Assembly: GCF_000337815.1 (NCBI RefSeq)
Contig: NZ_AOLN01000001.1
Coordinates: 1-64,000, forward strand
From: Haloferax mucosum ATCC BAA-1512
GTDB taxonomy: Archaea > Halobacteriota > Halobacteria > Halobacteriales > Haloferacaceae
Reading direction: 5' to 3'
Length of the DNA stretch: 64,000 nt
Part shown: positions 992 through 7,029 of the stretch, in pieces
How the letters are laid out: each line of letters opens with the position of its first letter
How positions within the stretch are numbered: position 1 is the first letter of the stretch
The notes under the pieces: generated by a model
Database searches by the model: none
The model's input: only the letters and a program-made list of their open reading frames with translations
What the model was told of the DNA's origin: nothing
Position numbers and translations under genes: made by a program

Positions 992-2197
992 CTACGTGTC
1001 CGTGTTCTCCGTAAGGACATCTTTCACTACGTCGGGGTCTTCCAGCAGTTGGTGTTTCGTATAGCTACCTTCGGCGCTCCCACCGCTGTGTTTGGATTGT
1101 TCGATAATATCGAGGAACGCGTGTTCTTTCAGCAAGTCGCGGACGCGCCGGAGTGACAGGCTATCGGAGCCTTGCTGTCGGCAGATATTTTCGTAGACCT
1201 CGTAGACGCGACTCGTCCGAAAGCCGTCCTGTTGTTGGTTCGACAGCGAAAGGATAGCGAGTGCCTGAAGCACGTATCGGGAGTGTGGCGTTGACCCGCG
1301 AATCAGTTCGCGGAAACGGTCGGTTTCCGCTCGCTGACGCGCCTGTGTGACGAAGTTTTCTCTGACCGTACTGGCGCCCATGGATTGTGCTATCTCGCCT
1401 GCGTACCGGAGGATGTCGATTGCTTTCCGTGCATCACCATGTTCGCGGGCGGCGAGTGCGGCCGCACGCGGAATCGTCGATGGATCCAAAACACCGTCAC
1501 GGAAGGCATCACTACGCGCGTCCATGATGTCGCGGAGTTGGTTCGCATCGTATGGCGGGAAGACGAATTCGCGTTCACAGAGGCTCGATTTGACGCGCTC
1601 GTCCATTCGGTCTTTGTACTGAATCTTGTTGCTGATGCCGATGACGCCGAGCTTACAGCCGGCAATCTTTCCCGCCTCGCCAGCACGCGACAGTTGCATG
1701 AGAATATCGTCGTCACTCAGTTTGTCTATCTCGTCGAGAATGATGAGCACGACGTCGTAGAGTGAGTCGAGGATACGCCAGAGTCGCTTGTAGTACGTCG
1801 AAGTCGAGAGACCCTTATCAGGAACTTTGATTCCCGTGACCGCAGTTTCGTTCACGCTGTCGGCGATCGTCTGGACCGCTTGCGTTTCGGTAGTGTCCTG
1901 TGCGCAATCGACGTACGCAAAGGTCGCTTTCACACCTTCTTCTTCAGCAGTTTCGACGAGGCGCTGTGAGACGTATTTGGCGCACAACGACTTTCCGGTC
2001 CCCGTTTTCCCGTAGATAAGAACGTTACTCGGGCTCTGTCCGAAGATGGCAGGATTCACCGCCGTCGCAAGACTCGAAATTTCGTCGTCACGACCGACGA
2101 TGCGACCCTCACCCGGGAGATGGTTAATCTCCAACAACTCCTTGTTAGCGAAGATGGGGTCCTCTCGGGTGAAGAGGTCGTCGCTGGCGTTAGGCAT
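992..2197 (-). CDS. orc: Orc1/Cdc6-type replication initiator
   Basis: A 401-aa AAA+ ATPase that binds origin recognition boxes and loads the MCM helicase. Walker A GKTGTGKS is at residues 63-70, Walker B LIILDEID at about 151-158, and sensor-2 residues follow in the arginine-rich region. The C-terminal 100 residues (VLQALAILSLSN onward, with YEVYENICRQQG) are the winged-helix domain that binds DNA. Length is normal for the family. The start codon is only about 9 nt from the first ORB repeat, so Orc probably covers its own promoter when bound to the origin. Transcription is away from the origin. Haloarchaea have many orc paralogues; the tight link to nine ORBs marks this as the cognate initiator. 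Confidence 0.95.
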   Translation of the reverse strand: MPNASDDLFTREDPIFANKELLEINHLPGEGRIVGRDDEISSLATAVNPAIFGQSPSNVLIYGKTGTGKSLCAKYVSQRLVETAEEEGVKATFAYVDCAQDTTETQAVQTIADSVNETAVTGIKVPDKGLSTSTYYKRLWRILDSLYDVVLIILDEIDKLSDDDILMQLSRAGEAGKIAGCKLGVIGISNKIQYKDRMDERVKSSLCEREFVFPPYDANQLRDIMDARSDAFRDGVLDPSTIPRAAALAAREHGDARKAIDILRYAGEIAQSMGASTVRENFVTQARQRAETDRFRELIRGSTPHSRYVLQALAILSLSNQQQDGFRTSRVYEVYENICRQQGSDSLSLRRVRDLLKEHAFLDIIEQSKHSGGSAEGSYTKHQLLEDPDVVKDVLTENTDT

Positions 2198-2205
2198 GTT
2201 CGCAA

Positions 2206-2226
2206 CACACCACGTTTCCGGTGAAA
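2206..2226 (-). repeat. Origin recognition box 1 (left-pointing)
   Basis: On the minus strand it reads TTTCACCGGAAACGTGGTGTG, nearly identical to the plus-strand box at 2927. It lies directly in front of the orc start codon, where it could give autoregulation. Confidence 0.85.
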
Positions 2227-2250
2227 GGACTTACCATTCGGCGTAGCACA

Positions 2251-2272
2251 CACACACCGGATTTCCGGTGAA
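2251..2272 (-). repeat. Origin recognition box 2 (left-pointing)
   Basis: The minus strand reads TTCACCGGAAATCC then GGTGTGTG. It has one change in the central triplet relative to the consensus. It is the same orientation as box 1 and 45 bp from it. Confidence 0.85.
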
Positions 2273-2318
2273 CCACCACGAACCTCCGTTTCCTGTCCAC
2301 ACGAAATGGAGGTATTCG

Positions 2319-2342
2319 TTCACCGGAAACACGGTGTGGGGG
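2319..2342 (+). repeat. Origin recognition box 3 (right-pointing)
   Basis: It reads TTCACCGGAAACACGGTGTG followed by a G-run (GGGG), the extended form typical of haloarchaeal ORBs. It is opposite in orientation to boxes 1 and 2. Confidence 0.88.
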
Positions 2343-2689
2343 TACTCTATTGGTACTAAAGAAGCGACACAGCACTCGAACATCGAGAGAACGATGGGAA
2401 GCATCTTCCCAAAGCCTCGGAAGAGGAGTAGGCTAGACGAGGTGACGCACTCTTGAGCGGCGTCTACGGCGCGAATTCAAAGTCAACGCACGGATAGCAG
2501 ACAGAATAGGCGACCGGCAACAGTTAACGATGCAGACACTAAGCGGGCACGACCAGTCAAAGAACTACTTGTCGTGGAGAGATTGTCGAGCAGAACACGG
2601 CAACGAACGGTTGGATTTCTCGTACACGTATTAACAGGACTCAGCCGGAGTTATCCAACCCTAACTCGGACGTCTCTTTCGACTCAAAC

Positions 2690-2710
2690 AATACTCGAGA
2701 TTCGAGTATT
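2690..2710. repeat. Perfect interrupted palindrome in the origin
   Basis: AATACTCGA, a 3-nt spacer GAT, then TCGAGTATT. An outer pair of arms, CAAAC on the left and GTTTG on the right (to about 2720), can extend the stem with an asymmetric bulge. It sits just before the AT-rich core of the origin. It may be a protein site or a cruciform; no family assigned. Confidence 0.6.
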
Positions 2711-2739
2711 ATCTTGTTTGCGAGTGTATCAATGGTCGG

Positions 2740-2830
2740 TAACACAAATAAACTATTTAACTATTTCTATACCCTGTGTAAACGAGGCTACGTTCGAATT
2801 GAGAGATATAGAACCACAAAGGATGGAACG
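2740..2830. other. Candidate DNA unwinding element
   Basis: This is the most AT-rich stretch of the origin (runs such as ACACAAATAAACTATTTAAC). It is placed between the left and right ORB groups, as expected for the site of initial melting. The assignment is by composition and position only. Confidence 0.55.
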
Positions 2831-2926
2831 AACGCAAAAATCGTCCCGTTTCTCCGGAAATACAGTGCTTGTCTCCGTGACGTACCTCTCCTTCCGAGCA
2901 TGTCTTTTAGCTCCTCTTCTCACCGG

Positions 2927-2950
2927 TTTCACCGGAAACGTGGTGTGTGG
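2927..2950 (+). repeat. Origin recognition box 4
   Basis: TTTCACCGGAAACGTGGTGTG followed by TGG. A partial copy (TCACCGGTTT) immediately precedes it. It is the first box on the far side of the AT-rich core. Confidence 0.88.
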
Positions 2951-3054
2951 GATATAAGTGGACCGATTCGATTTCTCGTGGCTATCGTACAGTGCCGTAC
3001 ACGACCCTAATCTCGGTATTACGGCGTCCCTGGACCCTCTCGTGTCTCCTATTC

Positions 3055-3078
3055 GTTCACCGGAAACCCGGTGTGTCT
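3055..3078 (+). repeat. Origin recognition box 5
   Basis: GTTCACCGGAAACCCGGTGTG, full consensus apart from the variable central bases. Right-pointing like the other distal boxes. Confidence 0.88.
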
Positions 3079-3130
3079 GTGAGACGAGTCATACAATCTT
3101 CGCTGTGACCCCTCCCTACGCGCTCGCCCA

Positions 3131-3154
3131 TTTCACCGGAAACACGGTGTCTGT
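3131..3154 (+). repeat. Origin recognition box 6
   Basis: TTTCACCGGAAACACGGTGT, identical in its core to box 3. It lacks the trailing G-run, ending in CTG. Confidence 0.88.
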
Positions 3155-3300
3155 CAGCGCTACAACGTTCCCAACTATCGTTATGTTGGTCTACTCATGC
3201 GTTTCCTGTCGGTGGCTGTGTTCGTCTACACGATAGTTTGAGTCGATATCGTCTCGCCACCCTCACGTCTCCGAATATCCCTGGCCACCTTCTCGCTTTG

Positions 3301-3324
3301 ATTCATCGGAAACGTAGTGTCTCT
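3301..3324 (+). repeat. Origin recognition box 7 (degenerate)
   Basis: ATTCATCGGAAACGTAGTGT. It has changes in both halves (CACC to CATC and GGTGT to AGTGT), so it probably binds weakly. Confidence 0.7.
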
Positions 3325-3346
3325 GCCCGTCCCTGCCGTTTTCTTG

Positions 3347-3370
3347 ATTCACCGGAAGCGAGGTGTGCGT
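3347..3370 (+). repeat. Origin recognition box 8
   Basis: ATTCACCGGAAGCGAGGTGTG. One A-to-G change in the central GGAAAC. It is 46 bp from box 7, close to the spacing of boxes 1 and 2. Confidence 0.8.
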
Positions 3371-3426
3371 GACCGTCTACGACCGCGGTGTCTTTGCTCT
3401 CGTCGGCGAGTCAACCCACCGGCACG

Positions 3427-3448
3427 ATTCACCGGAAACGAGGTGTGT
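3427..3448 (+). repeat. Origin recognition box 9
   Basis: ATTCACCGGAAACGAGGTGTG. It is the last box before the origin-associated gene at 3544. Confidence 0.85.
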
Positions 3449-3543
3449 AACGGACTGGCGTGCAATCGTGACTCTTCGGCGTGGCAGACTGTGCCGTTCT
3501 CGTGGCGTCAATGCAATTACCCCGGAGAACCAACTAATTACTC

Positions 3544-4026
3544 ATGCATACGCTCGGTCGTGTGTGGGCGCGTCTCCGAGAGGCGATATCGTCGGGAGAA
3601 GGCCAATCGGAGTGGTCCCTAAAGTGGTCACGTCAAGTCGAGTCACGATGGTCCCGACCGAAGGAAACCGTCGATTGCTTTCGCTTCGACGATGGGTACG
3701 TCACGACTGTAAAGTACGAAACTCGTGATGTCACGTGGCAACTCACGCCCGGTCAGGTTCCGTTGGCGAGTGCGCTCGCCATGGCGACGCTATACCTCGA
3801 ACATAAACTGACGCCGCAAACAGATCCAGAAGGGCGTCCCTTCATCGGACTGGCCGACCACGGTCCCGTACAAGTGTTCGAAGAGATACCTCCCGAACCG
3901 GTCGAATACGTCTACCTCGACGGTATTCGAACGCTCGAAGAGTTTCCCGACTTTCTCACCATCGACAACGACCTCCGGTCCGTCTTCGACCAAATGGCGC
4001 CCGCCCAGTCGAGAACGTCACGCTGA
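3544..4026 (+). CDS. Origin-associated hypothetical protein
   Basis: A 160-aa protein of unknown function beginning 95 nt after the last ORB. Codon use and the acidic composition after residue 40 look like a real haloarchaeal gene. The N-terminus is basic and Trp/Arg-rich (WARLREAISSGE, then WSLKWSRQVESRW), and the rest is a compact mixed alpha/beta stretch without recognisable catalytic motifs. No membrane segment. Its last codons and TGA stop lie inside the first unit of the 19-bp tandem array, so array growth may have altered the C-terminus (SRTSR). Haloarchaeal origins often have a conserved small gene opposite orc; this fits that place, but a replication role is inference from position. 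Confidence 0.75.
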   Translation: MHTLGRVWARLREAISSGEGQSEWSLKWSRQVESRWSRPKETVDCFRFDDGYVTTVKYETRDVTWQLTPGQVPLASALAMATLYLEHKLTPQTDPEGRPFIGLADHGPVQVFEEIPPEPVEYVYLDGIRTLEEFPDFLTIDNDLRSVFDQMAPAQSRTSR

Positions 4027-4220
4027 ACAGGGACCGTCACGCTGAACAGGGACCGTCACGCTGAACAGGGACCGTCACGCTGAACAGGGAACGTCACGCT
4101 GAACAGGGAACGTCACGCTGAACAGGGAACGTCACGCTGAACAGGGAACGTCACGCTGAACAGGGAACGTCACGCTGAACGGGGAACATCACACTGACCC
4201 CGCGAACGTCACAGTGAAAC
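4016..4220 (+). repeat. 19-bp tandem repeat array, about 11 copies
   Basis: The unit is CGTCACGCTGAACAGGGAA or ...GAC. Units begin at 4016, 4035, 4054, 4073, 4092, 4111, 4130, 4149 and 4168. Two degenerate units follow, at 4187 and 4207. The first three end in C and the next six in A; the ninth also has one internal change. The array covers the stop codon of the preceding gene and the possible GTG start (4214) of the helicase frame. A 19-bp period is not a multiple of three, so it cannot be a conserved protein repeat. It is iteron-like in size and position, but no function is known. Confidence 0.95.
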
Positions 4221-4327
4221 AATCGTACCCGCGCAACTTTCGTAGGCGAGTGTCCGGCCACGGGGTGGCGTTCTTTGCCACCCGGGTGTCGCAAGCCGTT
4301 TCCCCGTCGCGTCCGTATCCGGAGTCG

Positions 4328-6454
4328 ATGACTGCCGAGGACGAGGACCGAGAAATCCCTCCAGACGAGTCGGGCACGCGGAGTTCAGCCTCCGAGCCGT
4401 CGGATTCGTTCGACCGAGACACGTCCGGCCGAGACGCGTCTGACCAAGACGTACTGGACCGACTCGCTGACGTGACAGACACCGGCATACCGGACGATGG
4501 TACCTCGGATGGCGGCATCTCGAACGACAGCACCTCCGACGACGATATCTCTCTCACCTCGTTCTACGAAGCCCTCGAAGCCGAGGGCCGACCAGTCGTG
4601 ACCGCACAACAGGTCGCCCGCCGTCTCGACGTATCCCAGGCGGATGCGCTGGATGCACTCGACGTTCTCGCAGACGCCGGCAAAGTCGAGCACGTGGCTG
4701 TCGAGACCGACCCACTCGTGTGGTATCCAACGGAGTGGGGTGAACTCGCGTCGCGTGAGCGAATCGTCTTGTTCCCGAAGCGCCGCGAACTCGTCGTCGA
4801 TAACCCGACCCAGTACACGCGAGCACGACTCTCGCAGTTCGCGCACCTCGTCGATACCACCGGAGACCGCGAGGGGCGAGGCCGCGGCTATCTCTACCGA
4901 ATCCGTCAAGAAGACGTGTGGCAGGCACCCTTCGACGATGTTCACGACCTGCTTTCGATGCTTCGGTCTGTCCTTCCGGAACGTTCGGCCCACCTCGAAT
5001 CGTGGGTCGAAGACCAGTGGAAGCGTGCCCACCAGTTCCGACTCTACTCCCACGAGGACGGCTACACGGTTCTCCAAGCCGCAACCGAGAGCCTGATGGG
5101 GAACGTCGCGCTTCAGAAACTCGACGAGAGCCAGGTTTACGCGCCGATTTCGGACACCGAGTCGTGGGTCAGAGACGAGGAGATCGCGGCCATCAAACGG
5201 GTTCTCTACGACGCGGGATACCCGGTTGAAGACGACCGCGACCTCGAAGACGGCGAAGAACTCGACATCTCGCTTCACATCGACCTCCGCGACTATCAGC
5301 AAGATTGGGTCAATCGGTTCATCGACCAGCGCGCCGGCGTTCTCGTTGGGCCACCCGGAGCTGGAAAGACGATTGCGGGTATCGGGGCACTCGGTGCGGT
5401 CGGCGGCGAGACGTTGATTCTCGTTCCCAGCCGTGAACTCGCACGGCAGTGGCGCGAAGAACTACTCTCGACGACCGACCTCACACGCGACCAAATCGGC
5501 GAGTACCACGGTGGGTCGAAGGAAATCCGCCCCGTGACGATCGCAACCTACCAAACCGCGGGGATGGACCGACACCGCTCCCTGTTCGACTCCCGTCGAT
5601 GGGGGCTTATCATCTACGACGAAGCTCACCACATTCCCAGTCGCGTCTTCCAGCGAAGCGCCAATTTACAGTCCAAACACCGCCTCGGACTGTCTGCGAC
5701 GCCCATCCGCGAAGACGACAAAGAGGCAGAAATCTTCACCCTCATCGGCCCGCCAATCGGGACCGACTGGAGCAAACTCTTCGACGCGGGCTACGTTCAA
5801 GAGCCGGAAATCGAAATCCGATACGTCGGGTGGAGCGACGATATGGCACGCAACGAGTGGGCCGCGAGTGACGGCCGTGAGCGACACATGCTCGCCGCGA
5901 TGAATCCCGGGAAGATATTCGAGATTCGCCGACTCCGAGCTCGCCACGCCGACTCGAAAACGCTCGTTTTCGTTGATTACCTCGACCAAGGAGAGACCAT
6001 CTCCGAGGCGCTCGACGTTCCGTTCGTTAGCGGCGAGACCAGACACCACCGCAGAGAAGCGTACTTCGAGGCATTCCGCGACGACGACCTCGACACGCTC
6101 GTCATCTCTCGAATCGGTGACGAGGGAATCGACCTCCCGAACGCGGAACTCGCAATCGTCGCATCCGGACTCGGTGGGTCCCGTCGGCAAGGCTCCCAAC
6201 GTGCGGGCCGAACGATGCGTCCCGCCGGTAGTGCACTCATGTACGTCCTCGCCACCCGTGGCACGAGCGAGGAAGACTTCGCACAGCGCCAGATGCAACA
6301 CCTCGCTGGGAAGGGTATCCGTGTTCGTGAAACCAACGCTGACGAGTCCGAGCCATCGAAGCCCGAAAGCTCACCCGAGACGGCTGACTCGGACTCAGAC
6401 TCGGATTCAAATTCTGATTCGCAACCGGACCCTGACACGCCACCGAGTAACTGA
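4328..6454 (+). CDS. rad25: Rad25/XPB-family superfamily 2 helicase
   Basis: A 708-aa ATP-dependent DNA helicase related to XPB/ERCC3, which opens DNA in nucleotide-excision repair and transcription. An acidic tail (residues 1-80) and a winged-helix-like stretch (QQVARRLDVSQADALDALDV) precede the helicase core. Walker A GPPGAGKT is near residue 341, DEAH near 430 (IIYDEAHH), SATP about 25 residues later. Motif VI is GSQRAGRTMRP near 625. The C-terminus is a D/S repeat tail. The frame extends back to a GTG at 4214 inside the tandem array, but ATG 4328 starts a normal acidic protein and is preferred. Its neighbour is the origin, a recurrent arrangement in haloarchaea as I recall, with no proven role in initiation. 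Confidence 0.9.
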   Translation: MTAEDEDREIPPDESGTRSSASEPSDSFDRDTSGRDASDQDVLDRLADVTDTGIPDDGTSDGGISNDSTSDDDISLTSFYEALEAEGRPVVTAQQVARRLDVSQADALDALDVLADAGKVEHVAVETDPLVWYPTEWGELASRERIVLFPKRRELVVDNPTQYTRARLSQFAHLVDTTGDREGRGRGYLYRIRQEDVWQAPFDDVHDLLSMLRSVLPERSAHLESWVEDQWKRAHQFRLYSHEDGYTVLQAATESLMGNVALQKLDESQVYAPISDTESWVRDEEIAAIKRVLYDAGYPVEDDRDLEDGEELDISLHIDLRDYQQDWVNRFIDQRAGVLVGPPGAGKTIAGIGALGAVGGETLILVPSRELARQWREELLSTTDLTRDQIGEYHGGSKEIRPVTIATYQTAGMDRHRSLFDSRRWGLIIYDEAHHIPSRVFQRSANLQSKHRLGLSATPIREDDKEAEIFTLIGPPIGTDWSKLFDAGYVQEPEIEIRYVGWSDDMARNEWAASDGRERHMLAAMNPGKIFEIRRLRARHADSKTLVFVDYLDQGETISEALDVPFVSGETRHHRREAYFEAFRDDDLDTLVISRIGDEGIDLPNAELAIVASGLGGSRRQGSQRAGRTMRPAGSALMYVLATRGTSEEDFAQRQMQHLAGKGIRVRETNADESEPSKPESSPETADSDSDSDSNSDSQPDPDTPPSN

Positions 6455-6600: not shown

Positions 6601-6674
6601 CCGCTCTTAGCTCAGCCTGGCAGAGCAGCCGACTGTAGATCGGCTTGTCCCCCGTTCAAATCGGGGAGAGCGGA
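6601..6674 (+). tRNA. tRNA-Tyr (GTA)
   Basis: A 74-nt cloverleaf without an intron. Acceptor CCGCTCT pairs with AGAGCGG, discriminator A. The anticodon stem GCCGA/TCGGC holds loop CTGTAGA with anticodon GTA at 6635-6637, and the T arm contains GTTCAAATC. The C1-G72 pair is the archaeal tyrosine identity pair. CCA is not encoded. A TATA-like TTCTTAAG lies about 35 nt upstream (6563-6571). Confidence 0.97.
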
Positions 6675-6676
6675 CT
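6654..6676 (+). repeat. Direct repeat copy 1, tRNA-Tyr 3' end
   Basis: A 23-bp sequence covering the T arm and 3' acceptor strand of tRNA-Tyr plus two bases. It recurs exactly at 6774-6796. This is the part of a tRNA gene normally used as an integrase attachment site. Confidence 0.85.
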
Positions 6677-7029
6677 CGTTTCTGACGTCGTCTGCGAACG
6701 AAGTGAGCCAACGGCGTCTGCCGAGACAACCTCGACCTGATTTGAGCAGTGAGCGAACGTCGTGAGCGAGTGGGTTCAAATCGGGGAGAGCGGACTGCTT
6801 TTAATACCTGCGAGCTTTTGCTTTGTCTCCCACTCCAATGAGCGCCAGCGAACGGGAGATAATGAGTCGAGCCGAACAAGTTTTGCGCACTGAAATGAAC
6901 TATCTATCCTATATACGTCTCCAGTGACGACCATACGTTTGGTTCCTATCCCATCTAGTACGTGGATTTCATACCATGAGTTATCAGTATTATAACGACT
7001 TATGCTTGGTTGGTCCGTACGTGTGGGCA
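6675..7029. other. Noncoding spacer after tRNA-Tyr
   Basis: Holds the displaced tRNA 3' end (6774-6796) and, between the two copies, imperfect repeats of GAGCGAACG/GTGAGCGAG. AT-rich sequence from about 6895 to 6990 probably contains the promoter of the next gene. Minus-strand frames across it are arginine-rich artefacts of the tRNA sequence. Confidence 0.5.
6774..6796 (+). repeat. Direct repeat copy 2, displaced tRNA-Tyr 3' end
   Basis: Exact 23-bp copy of 6654-6676 located 120 bp downstream, without the rest of a tRNA. It is what remains of an attachment site after integration and loss of an element, or of a local duplication. Confidence 0.8.

Follow-up and report, generated by a model that had tools for sequence, protein, structure and literature searches.

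A 19-bp tandem array lies across the origin-associated gene oap from the replication origin oriC1 in the 64-kb stretch of DNA analyzed here (the window). We read it, with a probability of about 0.86, as a selectively neutral, species-specific noncoding minisatellite that originated from the oap 3′ end. Its eleven units (4013–4222), nine of them near-identical and two decayed, start within the last codons of that gene and stop short of the neighboring helicase gene; the array is lineage-restricted, being present in 1 of 15 Haloferax species.

The oriC1 locus and the structure of the array

The window begins at the end of a contig in a 3.37-Mb draft genome of 20 contigs, whose closest relatives are other Haloferax species. 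Its locus is the conserved haloarchaeal oriC1, a conventional origin. A TBP gene (268–825) precedes the orc1/cdc6 initiator gene of oriC1 (992–2197, minus strand; Pfam matches to Cdc6_lid, Cdc6_C, and AAA), and oriC1 proper (2207–3446) carries nine ORB-like boxes (Orc1-binding boxes) around an AT-rich stretch at ~2640–2830. In a consensus scan requiring at least 14 of 18 positions, these boxes fall at 2207 and 2254 on the minus strand and at 2319, 2928, 3056, 3132, 3302, 3348, and 3428 on the plus strand, and no further site at that threshold appears in the 64-kb window outside oriC1. The oap gene follows (3544–4026, plus strand), an uncharacterized open reading frame of 160 amino acids ending in ..SRTSR-stop, whose protein is 74–80% identical in 14 other Haloferax species and matches no Pfam or NCBIfam family.

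The array thus sits ~570 bp beyond the last ORB and within 1 kb of the origin. On its other side, 105 bp of unique DNA (4223–4327) separate it from the ATG of an XPB/Rad25-like helicase (4328–6454, plus strand; Pfam ERCC3_RAD25_C, with NCBIfam XPB below cut-off); a first-pass annotation, which had the units running without interruption to the helicase, was inaccurate in this respect. The N-terminal part of the helicase (4380–4560 in the window) is of low complexity, and its length varies among relatives through in-frame repeats, for example a 24-bp unit in nine copies in one of them (L027). Farther along, the 3′ end (6654–6681) of a tRNA-Tyr (6601–6675) is repeated 120 bp downstream at 6774–6801 (28 nt, 93% identical), a copy that may stem from a local duplication or from an integration or excision event in which the tRNA was the attachment site.

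TRF reports the array at 4013–4197 with period 19, 9.7 copies, 96% matches, and a score of 328, against a best score of 64 among 300 dinucleotide shuffles of 3501–4700. The array is real, and chance does not produce it. We set the phase of the units by the end of oap, so that unit 1 starts at 4013. Unit 1, the putative founder (4013–4031, plus strand), is A-type and comprises the last oap codons, the TGA at 4024–4026, and 5 nt. Units 2–9 (4032–4183) are near-identical 19-mers: three (units 2–4) are C-type, with GACC; four (units 5–8) are exact A-type, with GAAC; and unit 9 carries one change, A to G. Aligned to the consensus unit, units 10 (4184–4203; 20 bp) and 11 (4204–4222) form a decayed right edge that is still clearly related, since only 0.12% and 0.02% of the window's 20-mers, respectively, align as well.

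TRF and unit-by-unit alignment bear out the eleven 19-bp units that the first-pass annotation had placed at 4016–4220, and its tally of three C-type, six A-type, and two decayed units describes the identical array read a few bases later; the overlap it had proposed with the TGA of the upstream gene likewise stands. Its further claim of recent growth from the left does not follow, as a homogenized center, a decayed right edge, and a coding-constrained first unit give no direction; tandem arrays commonly show such identical central units next to a decayed edge.

All six frames of the array contain recurring stop codons. Because the period is 19 bp, not a multiple of three, and every unit holds a TGA, neither strand has a reading frame that runs through the array, and it is untranslated. 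We rejected a GTG at 4214 as the helicase start. This triplet, which had been offered as the possible start of the next gene, is indeed present in unit 11 but is an implausible initiator: all 15 Haloferax species share the ATG at 4328, and the frame upstream of it is closed by a stop within 60–90 bp in 9 of 14 congeners. On this comparison, the GTG reads as an accident of unit 11.

The oap 3′ end and the junction in other Haloferax

The sequence of unit 1, GAACGTCACGCTGAACAGG, is that of the oap 3′ end (..AGA ACG TCA CGC TGA); in the frame of the gene it is spelled GA, ACG, TCA, CGC, the stop TGA, and the five bases ACAGG. At the same position, the oap genes of relatives end in AGAACGTCCCG-stop (..AGAACGTCYCG-stop) or similar, and the ending ..S-R/S-T-S-R-stop is shared in near-identical form by all but 3 of the 14 congeners, one of them reading tcg aga acg tcc cga TAG. 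Directly after the stop codon, the Haloferax sequences diverge. As the terminal codons of oap are conserved in relatives, the array is therefore a repeated tandem duplication of the oap 3′ end.

The array is absent from the homologous oap–helicase junction in all 14 congeners, none of which holds a match to the unit with at most one mismatch. Across 291 other genomes of the class, the unit forms no array, and isolated single matches with one mismatch occur in 17 genomes. Elsewhere in its own genome, it finds only scattered three-mismatch matches, similar to those of a reversed control pattern; none was found in viral contigs or in plasmids. That no congener carries the array weighs against any conserved function in replication, segregation, or transcription. 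As far as distribution is concerned, its absence at the species level (0 of 14 congeners) fits the pattern that had been named beforehand as speaking against a replication role, presence or absence among relatives unrelated to replication.

The junction also has a conserved element. The block GTGTCGCAAGCCGTTTCCCC (4286–4305, plus strand) is present in 15 of 15 Haloferax, 41 or 42 nt from the helicase ATG. Its frame relative to that ATG differs in 6 of the 15, so the block is conserved as DNA; most simply, it is the probable promoter region of the helicase. The spacer from the oap stop to this block measures 259 nt here versus 8–146 nt in the 14 congeners (8, 17, 38, 39, 48, 48, 58, 66, 98, 99, 128, 129, 129, and 146 nt), and an ordinary spacer therefore remains once the extra units are removed. 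Among Haloferax, spacer DNA aligns only at the promoter block and at the end of oap. Between the array and the block lies a hairpin (4263–4283, plus strand) with a perfect 7-bp stem, GGGTGGC/GCCACCC, and a fold z of −1.57, possibly an oap terminator or a cruciform. In some congeners, the dyad found at its position is a different one.

Noncoding arrays elsewhere in the genome and the family

We sampled 864 kb of the genome, made up of the 64-kb window and forty 20-kb stretches, with crude gene calls. This sample contains 98 arrays scoring at least 50, of which 37 are noncoding; their periods range over 8–54 bp, mostly 15–25 bp, and the commonest is 19 bp (five arrays). The units are unrelated: a motif shared by the oap array and the other arrays of the genome was sought and found in 1 of 36 units at p = 0.05, the chance level. 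Two other arrays tested against relatives likewise occur in this species only. By the same crude gene calls, noncoding arrays appear denser here (37 in 864 kb) than in the congener G013 (6 in 400 kb).

Arrays that cross a stop codon are found elsewhere as well. In another genus of the family (genome G057, L028, reverse complement, ~1896–1960), an unrelated 19-bp unit in three copies lies across the oap stop. In the genome of the window, a 43-bp unit in 2.9 copies crosses the TAA of an unrelated gene (L063, 3958–4082). In G013, a 20-bp unit in 2.9 copies crosses the TAA of an unrelated gene (L109, 16720–16777). To judge by their sequences, such stop-spanning arrays arose independently at several genes, which suggests that gene 3′ ends tolerate them.

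These properties have precedents in a survey of prokaryotic satellites (PMC6749651), which reports ~40% of the satellites in archaea to be one-off sequences of spontaneous origin. The oap array resembles the noncoding minisatellites of that survey in its short head-to-tail units, its lack of relation to other arrays, and its local origin. Most of the surveyed satellites of Halobacteria are coding and have a period divisible by three, whereas the oap array is noncoding, has a period of 19, and begins in a stop region.

Weighing function against neutral expansion

If the array is a neutral minisatellite, a 19-bp stretch made up of the last oap codons, the TGA, and the next five bases would have been duplicated in tandem, and replication slippage or unequal recombination would then have expanded the duplicate to eleven units. 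The added copies would all land between the original oap stop and the helicase promoter block; lying behind the stop and upstream of the block, they would change neither protein, and expansion would therefore be tolerated. Central copies would be recent and homogenized, and those at the right edge decayed. Two parts of this account are our inference: that slippage was the process, and that the array has no function. Counted against neutrality is position: the top-scoring and largest tandem repeat in the 864 kb sampled turns out to be less than 1 kb away from the origin.

That position, together with the iteron-like size of its direct repeats, invites the proposal that the array controls oriC1, its units binding Orc1 or another replication protein and limiting initiation. 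A precedent exists in Haloarcula hispanica, where an 11-ORB cluster downstream of cdc6E at oriC2 is a proven negative regulator that acts by titration (PMC3936714). Both cases place repeated elements near an orc/cdc6 gene and an origin; the H. hispanica cluster, however, consists of ORBs, whereas the oap array holds none, has contiguous units, is species-specific, and lies beyond oap. Its best ORB match reaches 10 of 18 positions, which is also the background mode across 200-bp bins in the rest of the window. The array is also outside the AT-rich stretch with two inverted ORBs that suffices as the minimal form of H. hispanica oriC1 (PMC3936714), its 19-bp pitch would correspond to a non-integer number of helical turns, and 14 of 14 congeners keep the oap–helicase pair without it. 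Plasmid iterons are likewise direct repeats of ~19 bp, but the oap array has no adjoining Rep gene and no AT-rich segment, stands beside an origin of the Orc/ORB type, and is missing from relatives that share the gene junction. Control of oriC1 by the array is accordingly very unlikely in our estimate. The first-pass annotation had left the choice among a replication-control or segregation site, a protein-binding array, and neutral expansion; the last of these is supported, and the first two, including an iteron-like form of the second, are not, given absence from 14 congeners, the lack of an ORB, a position outside the ORB-bounded origin, no notable fold, and the abundance of unrelated noncoding arrays.

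A regulatory element of the oap–helicase junction, serving in oap termination or as an operator or spacer upstream of the helicase promoter, is unlikely too, if a little less so. The array sits right between the stop of oap and the conserved promoter-like block, with the hairpin just downstream. Set against this, congener spacers vary from 8 to 146 nt with unconserved sequence, the RNA fold of the array is no better than that of shuffles (z = 0.58), and by inspection the units contain no T-rich tract; nor does the array match Rfam up to E = 1. Between these two in likelihood, and still quite improbable, is a newborn, species-specific protein-binding array that came from the gene 3′ end and now modulates oriC1 firing or helicase expression. 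For a species-specific role of any kind, we allow a slim chance.

Copy number is read from one draft assembly of one strain, and assemblies are prone to copy-number error in arrays of short units, so that the true count could be lower or higher than the assembled one in this 20-contig draft. The variants are nevertheless ordered, with a C-type block, a G variant, and a decayed edge, and the flanks are unique; the bulk of the array must therefore be genuine, even with an error of a few units in the count. We regard an assembly artefact as the least likely of the explanations considered.

The importance of the array as a neutral minisatellite beyond annotation is small. It is a candidate marker for typing strains, and it warns against taking repeats near origins for iterons. 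It also illustrates cleanly how minisatellites that span a stop codon arise in Haloferax while both flanking genes stay unharmed.
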